Source of the DNA: an uncultured Rubrobacteraceae bacterium
GTDB lineage: Bacteria > Actinomycetota > Rubrobacteria > Rubrobacterales > Rubrobacteraceae
DNA length: 42,034 nt
Reading direction: 5' to 3'
Assembly: GCA_902806075.1 (NCBI GenBank)
Contig: CADCVG010000030.1
Location: forward strand, 1 to 42,034
Shown here: piece by piece, positions 69 through 39,325 of the stretch
How the letters are laid out: every line of letters starts with the position of its first letter
Position numbering within the stretch: position 1 is the first letter of the stretch
Notes under the pieces: generated by a model
Seen by the model: only the letters and a program-made list of their open reading frames with translations
Told to the model about the DNA's origin: nothing
The model's database searches: none
Program-made: the position numbers and the translations under genes

Positions 69-112
69 CTACTGGCGGAAGCTCTTAGCGGCAATTTGGT
101 GAATAGAGGCAA
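69..112 (+). repeat. Dispersed intergenic repeat copy R1 (right half clear: GCTCTTAGCGGCAATTTGGTGAATAGAGGCAAC)
   Basis: Right half nearly identical to 2160-2190 (CGGCAATTAGGTGAATAGAGGCAAC); left half diverged. Confidence 0.65.
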
Positions 113-128
113 CGAGACAGCTCAACCA

Positions 129-208: not shown

Positions 209-1306
209 ATGTCAAACAACCCGAACGACGATGTGGCCGTGGGCAGCGCACACGAACTTGAGGTGGCTGCGCAGCTTGTTGACCGCCCCGGCAACCCTGC
301 CTTGACACCGAACGGACGGCTCATCGTTAGCCTGCACCCTTTCCCTTACGGCGACCCTTCACCGTACCATGTGGTCGAGGTGATGGAAGACGGTAGCACG
401 CGTCCGTTTCCGAACGAAGAGTGGAGCACCGCACCCAACGAAGACGGAATAGGACTCTCGTCCGTCATTGGGGTGCAGTCTGACCGCAGGGGCGTGGTTT
501 GGATCATGGACATGGGTGGTGGCGAGCTTCCACCCAAGCTGGTGGCCTGGGACACCAGACGCGACGAGCTTCACCGCGTCATCACGATCCCCCCGCACGC
601 TAGGGTCCCTAACTCCTTCCCGCAGGACCTCGCCATAGACGAGGTCCGGGGGGCTATCTTCCTGGCGGACGTGGGCCGCGGCGACCTCTTTGGGCCGAGC
701 GACCCGGCTATCGTGGCGATTGACCTTGATACGGGTTACGCATGGCGTGCGCTGGAGGGACATCAGAGCCTCCAGCCCGAGGATGATATCTCAGTTGAGA
801 TCGAGGGCCGTCCAATACGTGTCGAGAACCCGGAAGGGGAGGTGGAGGAACCGAAGCTGGGCCTCGACCCCATTGTCATAGACCCGGCCAACGAGTGGGT
901 CTATTACGGCTCTGTTCACGGTACTAGCGTCTACCGCGTTCGCGCAGCCGACCTACTCGATAGGAGCCTCTCAAAGGAAGAACTTGCTGGAAGGGTAGAG
1001 CACTATGGAGAGAAGCCTCCGAGTGACGGCATCAGCATAGATGATGCCGGCAACATTTACGTAACCGATCTGGAGAACAATGCTGTAGGAGTGACGACAC
1101 CTGAGGGTGACTACCAAGTCCTTGCGAGGGATGACGAGCGTCTGGTATGGCCCGACGGCTTCAGCTATGGCCCTGATGGCTACTTCTACGTGACCGTCAG
1201 CCAGCTCCATCGCTCGGCGGTCTTCAACGCCGGGGAAGAGACCTCGCAGACGCCCTTCCTGGTGATGCGCTTCCGAGCTCTGGCACCTAGTGCGGTTGGT
1301 CGCTGA
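209..1306 (+). CDS. Major royal jelly protein/yellow-family (SMP-30-like beta-propeller) protein
   Basis: 365 aa ORF; ALTPNGRLIVSLHPF...GVQSDRRGVVWIMDMGG...NIYVTDLENNAVGVTTPEG is typical of bacterial MRJP/yellow proteins; GGGAGGAAGG ribosome-binding site upstream. Confidence 0.8.
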   Translation: MSNNPNDDVAVGSAHELEVAAQLVDRPGNPALTPNGRLIVSLHPFPYGDPSPYHVVEVMEDGSTRPFPNEEWSTAPNEDGIGLSSVIGVQSDRRGVVWIMDMGGGELPPKLVAWDTRRDELHRVITIPPHARVPNSFPQDLAIDEVRGAIFLADVGRGDLFGPSDPAIVAIDLDTGYAWRALEGHQSLQPEDDISVEIEGRPIRVENPEGEVEEPKLGLDPIVIDPANEWVYYGSVHGTSVYRVRAADLLDRSLSKEELAGRVEHYGEKPPSDGISIDDAGNIYVTDLENNAVGVTTPEGDYQVLARDDERLVWPDGFSYGPDGYFYVTVSQLHRSAVFNAGEETSQTPFLVMRFRALAPSAVGR

Positions 1307-1374
1307 GACTCCCCATTATCACATGAAGCCTTAGAGGCGAGAAGCAGACAAAAGGCTAGACCGGGGCATGCTAG

Positions 1375-1427
1375 TTTCCGAGAAGACTACTCTTAGCGGA
1401 GGTTAGGCGAATAAGGGCATAAGAAGA
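1375..1427 (+). repeat. Dispersed intergenic repeat copy R2
   Basis: TTTCCGAGAAGACTACTCTTAGCGGAGGTTAGGCGAATAAGGGC; aligns with the copies at 2144 and 38447. Confidence 0.65.
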
Positions 1428-1509: not shown

Positions 1510-2022
1510 TTAGCTCTGCTCCGGGGGGTAGGTCCGGTGTGGGGGCACCATCTCCTGTGGCATCTCCAGCGCTTCGAGGATGCAGCCTAAAGCACGCTCG
1601 GTATCGAAGTAGGCGTAAGCGCCGTCGTCGTTGGTGCCGAAACCGCGCCCGCTCTGGAGCATCGAGAAGCCCCGAGACTCCATCTTTGAGATCTCTGCGT
1701 CTATGTCCTCAACGAAGTAGCCTAGATGGTGCAGCCCCTCGCCATGCTCGTTGAGGAACTCCTCGTAAATGTTTGGTCCTTGAACTGACTCCATCAGCTC
1801 GTATAGCACCGGTCCTACGCTGCATAGGGCAAGCTTGTAGACGTAGCCCTGTTCCTCACCGTGGACCGTCATATCTCGGATCCAGTCCGGGCTAAGGGTG
1901 TAGACTGCCCACGGCCCCACTCCCAGATCGTTCGTGTAGTGCTCCATCGCTCGGTCCAAGTCGCGCACGAGCACGGCTACGTGTTCGATCGCCCCTATGC
2001 TGCCAGCATTAGCCTCCATCAA
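1510..2022 (-). CDS. VOC family (glyoxalase / methylmalonyl-CoA epimerase-like) protein
   Basis: 170 aa; IEHVAVLVRDLDRAMEHYTNDLGVGPW...EGLHHLGYFVEDIDAEISKMESRGF. Confidence 0.85.
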   Translation of the reverse strand: MMEANAGSIGAIEHVAVLVRDLDRAMEHYTNDLGVGPWAVYTLSPDWIRDMTVHGEEQGYVYKLALCSVGPVLYELMESVQGPNIYEEFLNEHGEGLHHLGYFVEDIDAEISKMESRGFSMLQSGRGFGTNDDGAYAYFDTERALGCILEALEMPQEMVPPHRTYPPEQS

Positions 2023-2150
2023 AGCCTCCTTCCTCTCCGCCTTCCCCGCAGGTTGCTGATACCTTGACTATATCCCTAGCGTGAGGGATATGGAAGGTTT
2101 GCTACAATTAATCAGCGAAGGTTTTCCAGAATAGGCAATGCGGTTTCCGA
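2023..2150 (-). promoter_or_regulatory. Promoter/leader of the VOC gene, duplicated at 38837-38965
   Basis: Minus strand: GATTAATTGTAGCAAACCTTCCAT-17-TATAGTCAAGGTA...CGGGGAAGGCGGAGAGGAAGGAGG; base-by-base similar to the region upstream of the 38525-38836 gene. Confidence 0.65.
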
Positions 2151-2190
2151 GAAGAGGTCTTCCCGGCAATTAGGTGAATAGAGGCAACAG
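2144..2190 (+). repeat. Dispersed intergenic repeat copy R3
   Basis: TTTCCGAGAAGAGGTCTTCCCGGCAATTAGGTGAATAGAGGCAAC. Confidence 0.7.
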
Positions 2191-2341: not shown

Positions 2342-2845
2342 ATGGTCGGCGGGTTGCTGTGGGTCGTAAAAGGAGGGGCTATCCTGCTCATGGGCCAGCA
2401 GCCTCCCGTGGTATTCGAGGCGGCCCTGCCCTTGTTCGCGGTCGGGCTGCTAGGGCTCCACGCTCGGCTCGACGGGCGCGGAGGGCCGTTAGGGAAGGCG
2501 GGAGTCCTGGTCGCCTACGCGGCCTTGACCTCGGCCGCCATCGTCTTGGTGGCACCGCTCGCACCCTTCTACGCCGCCGCGGGATTCGGGCCTTTCCTCG
2601 GCTTGGTGTTGCTGGGGAGCGTCACCCTACAAGCCAGGGTCTTCCGCCCGCCCTGGAGCGCGTTGCCGCTCGCTATGGGGTTGGGGGGTCCCCTCTTGAT
2701 CTTGGCGGGAGGGGGTCTGGCCCTGATGAGCGAAAAGCTATTGGAGATCCCGATCGTGTTAGTCGGGCTCGCTTGGATGCTGCTGGGCTATTCGGTGTTA
2801 GTAGTCAAGGAGGCGACGGTCCAAGCACCTGTACGGGTGAGGTGA
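2342..2845 (+). CDS. Small multi-TM membrane protein (paralogue 1); true N-terminus probably ~45-50 nt further upstream
   Basis: LIRLGGLAAMVGGLLWV start matches the next two ORFs; hydrophobic; ends PVRVR like the others. Confidence 0.65.
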   Translation: MVGGLLWVVKGGAILLMGQQPPVVFEAALPLFAVGLLGLHARLDGRGGPLGKAGVLVAYAALTSAAIVLVAPLAPFYAAAGFGPFLGLVLLGSVTLQARVFRPPWSALPLAMGLGGPLLILAGGGLALMSEKLLEIPIVLVGLAWMLLGYSVLVVKEATVQAPVRVR

Positions 2846-2852
2846 GCCTCAA

Positions 2853-3452
2853 GTGAGGAGGAAGTTTACGGTGTCTTCAACTCTTATCCGGTGGGGCGGG
2901 TTCGCGGCTATGGTGGCCGGGCTGCTGTACTTCGTAGGGTACGCTGGCATGGCTGAACTGCTCGTGCCTATGATGAGCAACCTGGGCGGCCACGTGGTGC
3001 TCGGCTTGGCGGGGCTGGCGACCCTACCCGCGTTGGTTGGGGTGCTCGTGCGGGATGCAAGACGGAGTGGACGGCTGGGTACGGTGAGCTATATCCTGTC
3101 CTTCGTCGGGGTGGCGGTGTTCTCTGTGGGTAATCTGGCCGAGGGCGTCTTCGCGATGGAGTTCGGGGTTGTGCTGTTCGGGGTGGGGCTGATAATCCTG
3201 ACGGTAGGCGTGGTGGTGCTCGGCGTGGGCCTGAGGCGAGCGAAGGTGCTGCCGGCTTGGGTCGTGTGGCCGCTAGTCGTCGGCTGGGCGGCTTTCCTGC
3301 CGGTCGCCAACAGCACTGTTGTCTTTGGCTTCGCCTCTTTCGTACCGTCGTTATTGGCTGCAGGGATGTTGGGTGTCGGCTGGGTGGCGGCAGGTTACGC
3401 GCTCTGGTCGGGAAGGACCACCTCAGCGCGGCAGCCCGCGCGCGTGCGGTGA
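2853..3452 (+). CDS. Small multi-TM membrane protein (paralogue 2); GTG start near 2871 is likely
   Basis: TLIRWGGFAAMVAGLLYFVGY...RQPARVR; AGGAGG upstream. Confidence 0.7.
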   Translation: MRRKFTVSSTLIRWGGFAAMVAGLLYFVGYAGMAELLVPMMSNLGGHVVLGLAGLATLPALVGVLVRDARRSGRLGTVSYILSFVGVAVFSVGNLAEGVFAMEFGVVLFGVGLIILTVGVVVLGVGLRRAKVLPAWVVWPLVVGWAAFLPVANSTVVFGFASFVPSLLAAGMLGVGWVAAGYALWSGRTTSARQPARVR

Positions 3453-3568
3453 GTCCTCGAGACTCCGGCCCTCCGTTTATGCCCCTGAACTCTGCCCCTC
3501 TACAAGCTTTGGTGAATAAGCTTCCGGCGGTGCGCTGAGCTTCGCCGGGTGCCTGATACGTTCGGCAG

Positions 3569-4180
3569 ATGAGTTCGAGTAGGAAGGAAGCCATGGGAAC
3601 TTCGATCCTTATCAGGTGGGCTGGACTAGCGGCCATGGTGGGTGGCGTTCTGTGGGCGCTGTGGACCGTGGGCTTCAACTTCGTCGGCTACGGCGAACCC
3701 GGAACCCCGGCCTACGAGCGCTATGAGGCATACAATAGGCTGCTGCCCCTCGCTCTGTTGCCCGTTGTGGTGGGCTTCCTCGGGCTACACGCCGCACAGA
3801 GAAGGAGCTACGGGTGGCTAGGTAGAGCAGGCTTTGTTACGGCCCTCGTCGGACTCGCCCTCGTGGTCGCCGGCAGCGTGGGTGAGTTCTGGGTGTTCAC
3901 TATGCAGCCCTACGGAGAGGCGAACGGTAGGGACGCCTCCTGGACGATCTACCTGTTGGGACACCTCGTCCTGGCCGTAGGTTCTGTGCTCTTCGGGATC
4001 GCCACCGTGCGAGCGAAGGTCCTGGCGCGCAAGCCGACGATGACTTTCGCCTTGCTCGGCGGGTTCGCCGTCGCGCCGTTCTTCGGAGCGTTGATGTTCG
4101 CCATTCCTTTCACGTGGCTAGGGTATACGCTCTGGTCGGGGAAGGGCGAACCGGTCCGACAACCCCAACGCGTGAGGTGA
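3569..4180 (+). CDS. Small multi-TM membrane protein (paralogue 3)
   Basis: ILIRWAGLAAMVGGVLWALWTVGFN...RQPQRVR; ATG at 3593 aligns with the paralogue starts. Confidence 0.7.
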   Translation: MSSSRKEAMGTSILIRWAGLAAMVGGVLWALWTVGFNFVGYGEPGTPAYERYEAYNRLLPLALLPVVVGFLGLHAAQRRSYGWLGRAGFVTALVGLALVVAGSVGEFWVFTMQPYGEANGRDASWTIYLLGHLVLAVGSVLFGIATVRAKVLARKPTMTFALLGGFAVAPFFGALMFAIPFTWLGYTLWSGKGEPVRQPQRVR

Positions 4181-6092: not shown

Positions 6093-7679
6093 TTACTTGC
6101 CGGGACTGGCCGCCGGTTGGTCCGTGGCTTCTTCCGCCTCTCGCGATTCCTCTTGTTGGCTCTCCTCGCGCGCGTCTTGCGCGAGGCCCTTGTATAGAGA
6201 CCAGCACATGGCGATCATGATCAGCGCGAACGGCAGGCCGCCCAGGATCGACGCTCGCTCGAGCGCCTCAAGACCACCGGTAACTAGCAGGACCGCCGCG
6301 ATAGCCGCCATCACCACCCCCCACGTCAGCCGGATCACCCTGCCGGGGTTCAAAACGCCGCCGGCGGACATCCTGCCCAGCACGATGGTCGCCGCGTCCG
6401 CCCCTGCAACGAAGAAGATAAAGAGCAGCAAGATCGCCACGAGCGACGTAATTAAAGGCAACGGGTACGCCTGAAGAAAGGCGAAGAGACCCACGGCCGG
6501 GTCGCTCTGGGCGGCCGTGTTGATCGTTCCGCCCGTCGAGCGGTCATAATCTATCGCCGCCCCCCCGAACACGGCGAACCATAAAGCGTTGGCGAGGCTC
6601 GGCGCTACCAGCACGCCTATGACGAACTCCCGGATCGTGCGTCCCCTGGAGACTCGGGCGACGAAGACCCCCACGTAAGGAGCCCAGGCGATCCACGTCG
6701 CGAATAAGAAGAGGGTCCCTGCGGGGTTACTCAAGAAAGCGGTGTCCTGGTTGAAGGCGTTCATCCTGAAGCTCATCGGGATCAGCTCGCCTATATAGTC
6801 GCCTATACCCTGCGTGAAGGCGTTGATCTGGACGACCGTTGGTCCCAGGACGATAAAGTAGAGCAGCAAAACGCCGGCCAGGTAGATGCTCGCCTGGCTC
6901 AGGTAGTTGACCCCCTTGTTGATCGGGGTGGACGCTGAAAGCAAGAAAGCGATCGTGGTAACCCCGATGATGATCAGCTGCAGGCCGATCCCGTTCGAGA
7001 TGCTGAAGCTCTCGCCGAGCCCCGCGCCGATCTGGAGGGTGCCAAGCCCCAGAGAGACCGCCACACCGAACAGCGTGGCCAGGATCGCCAATGTGTCTAT
7101 GGCCTTCCCGATGGGACCATTGGCGCGGTCGCCGAGCAGGGGCGAGAGGACCGCGCTGATCAGACCAGGCTTGTCTTTACGGAAGTTGAAGTACGCGACG
7201 GCGAGGGCGACGACGGCGTAGATAGCCCACGCGTGCAGCCCCCAATGGAAGAACGAGTACTGCATGCTCAGCTGGGCCGCCGCAGCCGTGTTCGGCTCGG
7301 CTCCACCGTAGGGTGGCTGGGAGGCATAGTGCATGACGGGCTCCGAGACCCCCCAAAAAATTACGCCGATGCCCATCCCTGCCTGGAAAAGCATCGCGAA
7401 CCACGAGAACAGGCCAAACTCAGGTTCCTCGTCCTCCTTGCCCAGCTTGATCTTGCCGTAGCGACTGAAGGCCAGAAAGACGACGAAGGCCAAAAACAAG
7501 GTCGTAACGATCAAATAGAACCAACTGAGATTCGCAACGACGAAGTCCAGAGCCGCCCCGGTCACCCTATCGAAGTTATCCGTAAGGAATACACCCCACA
7601 GAACGAACGCCAGCGTGATGGCAATCGTGACCCAGAATACGGTTCCGACCTGAGAGGTCACTTTTCGTATGCTCTGCAC
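6093..7679 (-). CDS. BCCT family (betaine/choline/carnitine) transporter
   Basis: 528 aa; MGIGVIFWGVSEPVMHYASQPP, FFHWGLHAWAIYAVVALAVAYFNFR, TWIAWAPYVGVFVARVSRGRTIREF. Confidence 0.93.
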   Translation of the reverse strand: MQSIRKVTSQVGTVFWVTIAITLAFVLWGVFLTDNFDRVTGAALDFVVANLSWFYLIVTTLFLAFVVFLAFSRYGKIKLGKEDEEPEFGLFSWFAMLFQAGMGIGVIFWGVSEPVMHYASQPPYGGAEPNTAAAAQLSMQYSFFHWGLHAWAIYAVVALAVAYFNFRKDKPGLISAVLSPLLGDRANGPIGKAIDTLAILATLFGVAVSLGLGTLQIGAGLGESFSISNGIGLQLIIIGVTTIAFLLSASTPINKGVNYLSQASIYLAGVLLLYFIVLGPTVVQINAFTQGIGDYIGELIPMSFRMNAFNQDTAFLSNPAGTLFLFATWIAWAPYVGVFVARVSRGRTIREFVIGVLVAPSLANALWFAVFGGAAIDYDRSTGGTINTAAQSDPAVGLFAFLQAYPLPLITSLVAILLLFIFFVAGADAATIVLGRMSAGGVLNPGRVIRLTWGVVMAAIAAVLLVTGGLEALERASILGGLPFALIMIAMCWSLYKGLAQDAREESQQEESREAEEATDQPAASPGK

Positions 7680-7708
7680 CCTGAACCTTCCTTTCTACCT
7701 TTGGCGTC

Positions 7709-9313
7709 CTACTTACCGGGGCTCGATGCCGACCGGGCCGTCGTTGCTGGGGAAGGCGCCCCCGCGCCTTCCCCAGACTCTTCTTCGGGCGCTTCTTGAC
7801 GGCCCTGTTCGCGGAGGTCCGCCCGCATAGACTTGTACATCGTGTAGCACATGAAGAGCATAACTATCGCGAACGGCAAACCTGCCAGGATCGCCGCCTG
7901 CTGGAGCGCCTCGAGTCCCCCGGTCAGGAGCAAGACCGCCGCCATCGCGCCTATCACCGCTCCCCAGGCGAGGCGGACGAACCTGTTCGGGTCCGTGATG
8001 CCGCCGACGGACATCTCGCCCAGGACGATGGTCCCCGCGTCGGCCCCGGCGACGAAGAAGATCCAGAGCATGAAGAGCGAGACGAGCGAGAGGATGAGTG
8101 GGAGCGGCAGGTACTGGAGGAAGGCGAAGAACCCGATGGCCGGATCACTCTGGGCGGTCTGGCTGAGCGTTCCACCGAGCGTCTGGTCTAGGTTGATGGC
8201 CGTCGCCCCGACTATGGCGAACCACGCCGCGGTGATCAGGCTCGGCACGATCAGCATGCCGCCGACGAACTCACGGATGGTCCTCCCCCTGGAGATCCGG
8301 GCGGCGAAGACCCCGACGTAAGGCGCCCAGGTGACCCACCATGCCCAGTAGAAGGTGGTGTAGTTGCCGAGGAAGCTGGTGTCCTGGTTGAAGGCGTTGA
8401 CCCTGAAGCTCGTGGGGATGAGCCCGCCGAGGTAGTCGCCGATCCCCTGGGTGAAGGCGTTGACCTGGATGACGGCCGGCCCGACGACGATGAAGTAGAC
8501 GACTAGAGAGGCGCCCACGATAAAGCTTATGTTGCTCAGCCACTTGACGCCTTTGTCGAGCGGTGTCGATGCCGAGAGCATGTAGGCGACGATGGTGACG
8601 CCGATGATGATCAGCTGCAGGTTGAGCCCGTTGGAGAAGCCCAAAGCCTCGCCGAACCCCGCCCCGATCTGGAGCCCGCCCAACCCCAAAGAGACGGCCA
8701 CACCGATAAGGGTGACGAGAATCGACAGGATGTCTATGGCCTTCCCGATGGGACCGTTGACGCGCTCGCCCAGGATAGGGTAGAAGATCGGACTGATCAA
8801 ACCCCGCGTGTCCCTGCGGAAGTTGAAGTAGGCTACGGCAAGGCCGACGAGGGCGAAGACCCCCCATGCGTGCAGCCCCCAGTGGAAGAACGAGTACTGT
8901 ATGGCGAGCTGGGCGGCCCCCGCCGTGTACGGCTGCGCCTCGCCGAAGGGTGGATCTGCGTAGTGCGTCAGGGGCTCGGAGGCGCCGAAGAAGACGAGGG
9001 CGAGCCCCATCCCCGCCTGGAACATCATGGCGATCCAGGAGAAGCGACCGAACTCGGGCTGCTCTCCCTCCTTGCCGAGCCGGATCTTGCCGTAGCGGCT
9101 GAGGGCCAGAACGATGACGAAGACCAGGAACAGGGTCGTCGCCATCATGTAGAACCAGGAGAGGTTCGAGACGATGAAGCTGAAGCTCGCTCTGGTCACC
9201 GCGGCGAAGCTGCTCGTAAAGAGCACACCCCACAAAACTAACGCTGTGGAGAGCGTGGCCGTTACCCAGAACACCGAACCCGTCTGGGATAACATCCTAT
9301 GCGCCCTTTGCAT
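7709..9313 (-). CDS. BCCT family transporter, tandem paralogue
   Basis: ORF 7709-9760, internal start MQRAHRMLSQTGSVFWVT at 9313; same motifs as the neighbour. Confidence 0.92.
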   Translation of the reverse strand: MQRAHRMLSQTGSVFWVTATLSTALVLWGVLFTSSFAAVTRASFSFIVSNLSWFYMMATTLFLVFVIVLALSRYGKIRLGKEGEQPEFGRFSWIAMMFQAGMGLALVFFGASEPLTHYADPPFGEAQPYTAGAAQLAIQYSFFHWGLHAWGVFALVGLAVAYFNFRRDTRGLISPIFYPILGERVNGPIGKAIDILSILVTLIGVAVSLGLGGLQIGAGFGEALGFSNGLNLQLIIIGVTIVAYMLSASTPLDKGVKWLSNISFIVGASLVVYFIVVGPAVIQVNAFTQGIGDYLGGLIPTSFRVNAFNQDTSFLGNYTTFYWAWWVTWAPYVGVFAARISRGRTIREFVGGMLIVPSLITAAWFAIVGATAINLDQTLGGTLSQTAQSDPAIGFFAFLQYLPLPLILSLVSLFMLWIFFVAGADAGTIVLGEMSVGGITDPNRFVRLAWGAVIGAMAAVLLLTGGLEALQQAAILAGLPFAIVMLFMCYTMYKSMRADLREQGRQEAPEEESGEGAGAPSPATTARSASSPGK

Positions 9314-37659: not shown

Positions 37660-38346
37660 TTGAGGGAGAGAAGAGCCGTTTTGCTGGCGTTGTTGGGGGG
37701 ATTGCTGCTTGCCTTGTACCCGGGCGCGGCACTCGCGCAAGGCGGGGGCACGGCTACAGCGCAGCTTGAGGACACGGAAGGCAACCCGGTGGGCACCGCC
37801 GAATTCGTCGAGGGTCCGAACGGTGTCACCATCACCGCCAACCTCCAACCGGGCCAACAGGCGGTCGAGCCCGGCGAGCACGGCATCCACTTCCACGAGA
37901 CGGGCTCTATTACGCCGGACTTCGAGGCCGCCGGGGAGCACTTCAACCCCACCGACGCCAGTCACGGCTTCAACAATCCTGAAGGGCCGCACGGCGGAGA
38001 CCTTGAGAACATAATCGTGAACGAGGATGGGAGCGCCAGCTACCAGACGACCGCTGCCCTGGTAACGCTCTCTGGAGGCCAGAACTCACTACTCGACTCC
38101 GACGGAAGCGCGCTCGTCATCCACCAGTCGGCCGACGACTACGAGACCGACCCTTCCGGCGAGTCTGGTGATCGAGTCGCCGCAGGCGTCATCACGGCAT
38201 CCGCTACCGGTGAGACCACCACTTCTGGGGAGATGACCGGCGGACTCCCTTCGAGTGGCGGTGCTACCCCGTCGGCATTACTGCCTGCCGCCGCCCTGAT
38301 CCTGGGCTCCGGCATCCTGGCGTTCGCTGTTTTGCGGCGCAGGTAG
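37660..38346 (+). CDS. sodC: Cu/Zn superoxide dismutase family, exported, C-terminal LPSSGG-TM-RRR anchor
   Basis: TTG at 37660 gives signal LLALLGGLLLALYPGAALAQ; GIHFHETG, FEAAGEHFNPTDASHGFNNPEGPHGGDLENI, LVIHQSADDY, DRVAAGVI; tail GGLPSSGGATPSALLPAAALILGSGILAFAVLRRR. Confidence 0.88.
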   Translation: MRERRAVLLALLGGLLLALYPGAALAQGGGTATAQLEDTEGNPVGTAEFVEGPNGVTITANLQPGQQAVEPGEHGIHFHETGSITPDFEAAGEHFNPTDASHGFNNPEGPHGGDLENIIVNEDGSASYQTTAALVTLSGGQNSLLDSDGSALVIHQSADDYETDPSGESGDRVAAGVITASATGETTTSGEMTGGLPSSGGATPSALLPAAALILGSGILAFAVLRRR

Positions 38347-38401: not shown

Positions 38402-38446
38402 TCCGGCGGAAGTGTTGCTAAATCTAAGAACGAGTAGCGCCGATGG

Positions 38447-38492
38447 TTTCCGGGAAGACTCCCTCTCGAATACCCGGTGAATAAGCGCTCCC
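38447..38492 (+). repeat. Dispersed intergenic repeat copy R4
   Basis: TTTCCGGGAAGACTCCCTCTCGAATACCCGGTGAATAAGCGC. Confidence 0.65.
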
Positions 38493-38524: not shown

Positions 38525-38836
38525 TCAAGGAATGGTCAGGACCAGACGAAACGCTCCGGGCTTCGCCTCTTCGCAGAGGGCTGCCACCTTGCCGATCACC
38601 TCTTGGGCCCGGGGGTCCGAACGCATCTTGCGGATGTCCTCAAGGCTCCTCCAGGGCCCAAACGAGTAGAAAAGCTGCGGGTCTTCCACACTACGTATAA
38701 GCGTGCCGGTGCCCGGAGGGTTGGGTAGACTCAAGAAGAAGCCTGCTAGATCTTCCTTCCACGCCTGCACAAACTCCTCCTCGCACCCTTCCTTGACGCG
38801 CCACATCGTTAGAGTGTAAGCGTCGCCGTCCTCCAT
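38525..38836 (-). CDS. Antibiotic biosynthesis monooxygenase-like (ABM) small protein
   Basis: YTLTMWRVKEGCEEEFVQAWKEDLAGFFLSLPNPPGTGTLIRSVEDPQLFYSFGPWRSLEDIRKMRSDP. Confidence 0.82.
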   Translation of the reverse strand: MEDGDAYTLTMWRVKEGCEEEFVQAWKEDLAGFFLSLPNPPGTGTLIRSVEDPQLFYSFGPWRSLEDIRKMRSDPRAQEVIGKVAALCEEAKPGAFRLVLTIP

Positions 38837-38965
38837 GGGACCTCCTTCCTCCCGCTTCCCCGGTGTGCTGCGTACACTTCAACTATATCTGGGAGGCGGG
38901 CATGACGGAAAGTCTGCTACAAATTATCGGCCGAAGGGTTTCCATTGAGTAGGGCAGGTTTCCGA
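38837..38965 (-). promoter_or_regulatory. Promoter/leader of the ABM gene, duplicate of 2023-2150
   Basis: Minus strand: GATAATTTGTAGCAGACTTTCCGT-17-TATAGTTGAAGTG...CGGGGAAGCGGGAGGAAGGAGG. Confidence 0.65.
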
Positions 38966-39000
38966 GAATGCTTAATGGCGGCAACTCTACGAACAAGGAC
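38959..39000 (+). repeat. Dispersed intergenic repeat copy R5, degraded on its right side
   Basis: TTTCCGAGAATGCTTAATGGCGGCAACTCTACGAACAAGG; the left side and ~100 bp upstream match R3. Confidence 0.5.
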
Positions 39001-39019: not shown

Positions 39020-39325
39020 ATCGTCCACGAGGACGGGGGTGCCAGTACCAAACGACCGCCGCCCTGGTGACACTCTCTGGGGAGCAGAATTCGCTGCTTG
39101 ACTCCGACGGTAGCGTACGAGCCATCTACGTACGGGCTGTCGACCACGAGACCGATCCGTCCGGCGAGTCGGGGATCGGGTGGCAGCCGGTTGGGCCGAG
39201 GCCACGGGAGTAGTGAGCCGCTGACGAGGACGGGCGGCGCAAGCCCCTGTCCACAGTGGGCCTTACGATGTTCGACGTGGCCCTCCTCCCCGGCGCCGGG
39301 GTACTGCTACGGCGGTCGCGCCTGA
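39020..39325 (+). pseudogene. Decayed partial copy of the sodC 3' half
   Basis: ORF 38968-39213: CQYQTTAALVTLSGEQNSLLDSDGSVRAIYVRAVDHETDPSGESG versus SYQTTAALVTLSGGQNSLLDSDGSALVIHQSADDYETDPSGESG; later frame VGLTMFDVALLPGAGVLLRRSR resembles the anchor. Confidence 0.85.

Follow-up and report, generated by a model that had tools for sequence, protein, structure and literature searches.

A promoter/leader family and dif-like sites around single genes of Rubrobacteraceae suggest mobile gene cassettes

The REP2 repeat of Neisseria reportedly holds a promoter and a ribosome-binding site. The passage citing it in PMC3898611 places REP2 upstream of unrelated genes, whose expression it influences. Xer recombinases and their dif sites serve chromosome dimer resolution, and in the XerS/difSL system dif lies near the xer gene (PMC3025954, PMC2731167). 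In the dif or pdif modules of Acinetobacter, genes are bracketed by sites that resemble the dif of the host (PMC6449649, PMC12907356, PMC13141974). Insertion sequences target these dif or pdif sites, and elements of the IS1202 family home on dif sites (PMC10132070).

Here we analyzed a window of 42,034 nucleotides, the whole stretch of contig CADCVG010000030.1 under study, from an uncultured Rubrobacteraceae bacterium (genome G000), together with related genomes. Two of the genomes match AVDCRST_MAG37 and MAG28 of uncultured Rubrobacteraceae, a MAG series that we take from its name to be of desert-crust origin. Two genes of this window, one of the VOC family and one ABM-like, have a common start signal, probably since each belongs to a small gene cassette that looks mobile and has copies of dif on both sides. 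The data suggest a housekeeping recombinase that relocates single genes within the genome together with the promoters they carry.

The shared start region of the VOC and ABM genes

The VOC-family gene (1510..2019, minus strand; PF13669, E 3.5e-20) and the ABM-like gene (38525..38836, minus strand; PF03992, E 1.7e-4, 22.1 bits, just under the Pfam cut-off of 23.1) are preceded by about 125 bp of similar sequence. The alignment scored 119, as opposed to 22.4±4.2 for 1000 dinucleotide shuffles (maximum 41). The aligned minus-strand stretches (2025-2160 and 38841-38975) run from TTCTCGGAAACC to GGAAGGAGG, the ribosome-binding site, and TTCCRT is separated from the -10 TATAGT by 17 bp in both copies. 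An earlier note on this DNA, made from the sequence alone, had given the coordinates and the spacing correctly, and it was also right that the proteins are unrelated, the VOC gene matching Glyoxalase_4 and the ABM gene matching ABM. Its description of the two as small dimeric alpha/beta-barrel enzymes fails for VOC, the fold of which we take from established family knowledge not to be a dimeric alpha/beta-barrel of the ABM type.

The region does look like a promoter plus leader (weak -35, TATAGTC -10, leader, ribosome-binding site), as the earlier note had read it. Its idea of a duplicated control region holds insofar as the similarity is far above chance, but the two copies are not a private pair, and belong instead to a promoter/leader family found across the genus. 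Likewise, the alignment of 125 bp stands, but not as a single unit, for it covers two joined elements, a promoter/leader (hereafter B) and a repeat (hereafter A). In a genome-wide search with the promoter motif, the promoter/leader part (2025-2112 and 38841-38927) was recovered upstream of other genes as well, while the TTTCCGAGAA repeat emerged as a separate dif-like element that brackets both genes. Copies of this repeat part (2142-2190, and in degenerate form 38958-39000) are found where there is no promoter, and also beside the promoter in either orientation. Specifically, the arm TTCYCGGAAAC gave 22 matches in the genome, mostly without promoter, versus 2 for the reversed control. Since the orientation of the repeat next to the promoter is reversed in L045/L104 and L094, promoter and repeat are separate elements.

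Members of the B family consist of a weak -35, a TATAGTC -10, a GGGGAAGGCGG leader and a AGGAAGGAGG ribosome-binding site. Conservation is restricted to blocks (GTAGCA, TTCCG, 17 bp, GATATAGTC, GGGGAAGGCGG and AGGAAGGAGG) with divergent sequence between them. The VOC copy (2025..2112, minus strand) carries the GTAGCA block, a -35-like TTCCAT, 17 bp, the -10 TATAGT, GGGGAAGGCGG and AGGAAGGAGG. A model built from six B copies (R1) scored 72.4 bits (E 5.5e-21) for this copy and 71.1 bits (E 1.4e-20) for the ABM copy (38841..38927, minus strand), both of them seed copies. In G000 about eight good copies were retrieved, and across the genus more than 20. The genes behind B encode VOC, ABM, several GYD proteins, two methyltransferases and one TusA protein, and others look like DUF1326, NTF2-like and other small proteins; six of the ten proteins tested against Pfam are products of B genes, and the other B genes were named by eye. 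Over the conserved block all pairs among ten members are similar (z 3.6-15). The approximately 45 bp further upstream are clearly common only to orthologous genes and to VOC and ABM (z 6.7), which makes the latter a somewhat closer pair inside the wider family. A hairpin ahead of the ribosome-binding site (CCCGC/GCGGG) is plausible, being 82% paired versus 36-58% when slid, but it is broken in the ABM copy, and its covariation was not above that of shuffles (57/500). No match to Rfam was obtained in the VOC leader. B may be an active promoter, and coregulation of VOC and ABM, as the earlier note had proposed, is possible, through whatever common regulator B might have.

Element A and the putative chromosomal dif of the genus

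Element A is 44 bp long and sharply bounded, with conservation at background on both sides, and the TTTCCGAGAA repeat is one of its arms. We detected 65 copies in G000, 112 in G003, 60 in G007, 40 in G001, 39 in G004 and 27 in G008, and none in G002 or G006. Neighboring copies (250-2500 bp apart) have a median distance of 1.1 kb, an interval that mostly contains one or two genes, and 83 are on the same strand versus 14 on opposite strands. In the window, VOC is flanked upstream by an A at 2142..2190 (model R2, 54.5 bits) and downstream by another in the same orientation at 1373..1422 (R2 41.5 bits), and a partial copy at 80..115 (R2 37.6 bits) marks the left end of the array. The neighboring cassette holds, between two A elements, a gene with an MRJP/NHL match in Pfam (209..1306, plus strand), with a weak B match at 155-201 (R1 15.5 bits). 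ABM is followed by an A at 38445..38492 (R2 35.8 bits) and preceded by a degenerate one at 38958..39000 with the sequence GTTTCCGAGAATGCTTAATGGCGGCAAC. All five A copies are on the minus strand.

A family of small membrane-like proteins with RWGGLAAMVGG near the N terminus occurs repeatedly between A elements (window 2390-4180; L090, L091, L095 and L101), and the two members tested had no match in Pfam. An insertion sequence roughly 1 kb long, carrying ORFs for a DDE-type transposase and having the ends GAGACTGTCTGGAAAAT, is inserted in the center of A at L094:1351-2330, L102:5307-6288, L162:3381-4375 and other places. The same position is occupied by a MITE of about 176 bp with ends CAGGCTGTTGAAAAACTC (L094:95-281, L095:8616-8798, L194:4306-4512 and L190:1253-1447). 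A subset of A copies has an extra common stretch of about 20 bp, ATGCAGGATCGTGGATATGR, beside the AAAC arm (L091:980, L157:5714, L162:1598 and others). Neither A-core nor dif patterns were found in viral contigs.

A near-palindrome of 28 bp with an 11-6-11 layout, GTTTCCGATAA-GTGGAA-TTCTCGGAAAC with variants, was found in five genomes (G000, G002, G003, G007 and G008), at a distance of 1.1-1.7 kb from a gene for an Xer recombinase. These Xer genes are orthologs, the protein is homologous to XerD (PDB 1a0p), and that of G000 (C102) has 320 aa. No dif was found beside xer in G001. The 4.16-Mb contig of G002, which begins with dnaA (identified by eye) and contains no A, has the palindrome at 2,115,939 of 4,156,492 (50.9% of the way round from dnaA), 54 bp from the peak of cumulative AT-skew (2,115,885; 200 kb sampled) and 42 kb from the GC-skew peak (2,073,485). 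It occurs once among the arm-pattern matches of G000 and once in the 400 kb sampled of G002. Because it lies beside a conserved Xer and at the terminus of G002, this palindrome is very likely the chromosomal dif of the genus. The canonical dif motif with the TTATGTNAANT arm was absent from 10 genomes.

The core of A matches this dif in one exact arm and in 19/22 arm bases on one strand, while the centers differ. Compared to dif, A has one arm kept, a diverged second arm, a 6-bp center (GANGTC) and an extra block of 14 bp. Scanning the window with the dif arms alone returned 38958 (18/22), 2143 (18/22), 38446 (17/22) and 1374 (15/22) at the top, all of them A sites; shuffled windows reach 14-16 of 22. 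The number of tyrosine recombinases does not track A. Since xer and dif are also present in G002, which is devoid of A, the spread of A must depend on some other factor.

Probable exchange at A and competing explanations

Among low-copy homologous segments, 21/139 end at A, 11 of these in both partners, and A plus margins represents less than 2% of the sequence. A first count of 91/406 was inflated by the insertion sequence and the MITE in A, and was therefore restricted to low-copy matches. Of 69 A-pairs with a common flank, 68 have only one flank in common, which is an upper figure because pairs with the insertion sequence, the MITE or the extended-flank subset are among them. In these pairs identity is raised as far as the 6-bp center and drops to baseline past it, and in two junctions read directly homology switches right after the center. 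An empty site was found for ABM: two G003 contigs are syntenic with 35.0-38.4 kb and 39.36-42.0 kb of the window, with a gap of about 70-100 bp between the syntenic blocks, versus about 950-1020 bp here, and the left homology stops at the outer edge of the A at 38445..38492. Elsewhere in G003 (C93) ABM is bracketed by A, with a highly similar gene, a much less similar promoter and unrelated flanks. ABM and methyltransferase cassettes both occur in unrelated surroundings. Just past the ABM cassette, 39020-39190 is a 77%-identical fragment of the neighboring Sod_Cu gene (38014-38186) of which relatives have a single copy. This fragment inside the insertion and the degenerate second ABM site indicate that homologous recombination contributed to the event or came after it. 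In contig C73 of G000, a direct repeat of 618 bp (93.5%; L098:4346-4963 and 7389-8006), which consists of the 3' portion of a gene, lies on both sides of an A-B-GYD-A cassette and a hydrolase-like gene.

We consider it probable that the A sites and the genes between them form arrays of dif-like gene cassettes in the chromosome, that many of these cassettes bring a promoter of their own, and that the resident Xer moves them. VOC and ABM would each be part of a small cassette in which a dif-like site is followed, after about 30 bp, by the promoter with its leader, the gene and a second dif-like site, with the A sites as diverged relatives of the chromosomal dif. The resident Xer tyrosine recombinase would most likely excise and insert the cassettes, perhaps through a circular intermediate, with strand exchange in the 6-bp center, and this exchange could build both chromosomal arrays and single insertions. 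The standard promoter/leader of many cassettes would allow expression of the gene wherever the cassette lands, and VOC and ABM would share theirs because it is the standard one.

An ordinary promoter under one activator, with the adjoining repeat being incidental, would fit a conservation that comes in blocks at fixed spacing, separated by divergent sequence, the weak -35 together with the conserved GTAGCA block, and the many small enzymes downstream of B. Some B copies are also located away from A (C74 and C57:32150). However, most good copies in G000 have an A element at a distance of about 30-50 bp from their start, and the copy number, arrays and empty site of A are left unexplained, so a regulon alone is an unlikely explanation. 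Gene swapping by homologous recombination has reportedly been proposed for the minimal mobile elements of Neisseria, and A could be viewed as REP- or MITE-like repeats between which genes are swapped by ordinary homologous recombination. The intergenic location and high copy number of A and the insertion of an insertion sequence and a MITE in it agree with this, and the Sod_Cu-like fragment and the 618-bp repeat suggest homologous integration in places. On the other hand, 44 bp of about 65% identity are a poor substrate for homologous recombination, the core of A matches dif, A forms no stable hairpin (fold z 0 to -1.9), and the Y1/REP-type transposase (PF01797) is absent from the A-rich genomes except for one match in G001. 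The last two points led us to reject a REP with its RAYT, and we find the broader reading of scattered repeats quite improbable.

The layout of the arrays is also that of integrons, and a broken integron integrase is present in the same genus (G005:C12), which might point to A as attC and to the arrays as integrase-less attC clusters left behind. Against this, RYYYAAC...GTTRRRY pairs were found in 2/115 A windows versus 1.7 in shuffles, A has no stable single-strand fold, and TIGR02249 was not matched at E 1e-10 in five incomplete genomes (G000, G001, G003, G007 and G008). An identity with attC and integrons is largely refuted by these results, and we assign it a very slim chance. The genome with the broken integrase (L112) has few A elements.

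The proposed Xer-driven cassettes and described systems

The dif-module papers that we found all concern Acinetobacter. If Xer-driven cassettes are confirmed, chromosomal arrays of dif-like cassettes in an actinobacterial lineage would greatly extend the range of gene shuffling by Xer and dif and show it to be independent of resistance genes. A promoter borne by the cassette would be a different answer to the problem of expression, for which integrons use a common promoter. For those Rubrobacteraceae in which the canonical motif is absent, we also propose which site is dif and which gene is xer. We are evenly divided on the more general proposition, that desert Rubrobacteraceae have an integron-like gene capture without dedicated integrase, in which the housekeeping Xer shuffles small cassettes bounded by diverged dif sites in direct repeat, many of them with a standard promoter/leader for expression at any place of insertion.

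The putative dif agrees with known Xer/dif systems in being a 28-bp 11-6-11 palindrome at the terminus and near xer, as in XerS/difSL (PMC3025954, PMC2731167), but lacks the canonical TTATGTNAANT arm. As with Neisseria REP2, a repeat lies ahead of unrelated genes, although the sequences are unrelated and the passage on REP2 in PMC3898611 does not describe bracketing of cassettes. As in integrons, the cassettes of A are lined up in one orientation, mostly with a single gene and one recombination site per cassette, but they have neither attC boxes nor fold, their genes have mixed orientation and their own promoters, and no integrase was found in most A-rich genomes. The dif modules of Acinetobacter are alike in their dif-like brackets, varied contexts and arrays, also on a chromosome (PMC6449649, PMC12907356, PMC13141974), and the insertion sequence and MITE in the center of A parallel the IS1202-family elements at dif (PMC10132070). 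Movement by Xer, a feature of these modules, may also apply to the A cassettes. By contrast, sites here are mostly direct repeats and not alternating (83 versus 14), A has one diverged arm and an additional block of 14 bp, a standard promoter is present in many of the cassettes, and they lie on chromosomal contigs of a different phylum. The A cassettes thus appear to work like the dif modules of Acinetobacter, but without the alternating orientation, and for this reason we do not file them there.
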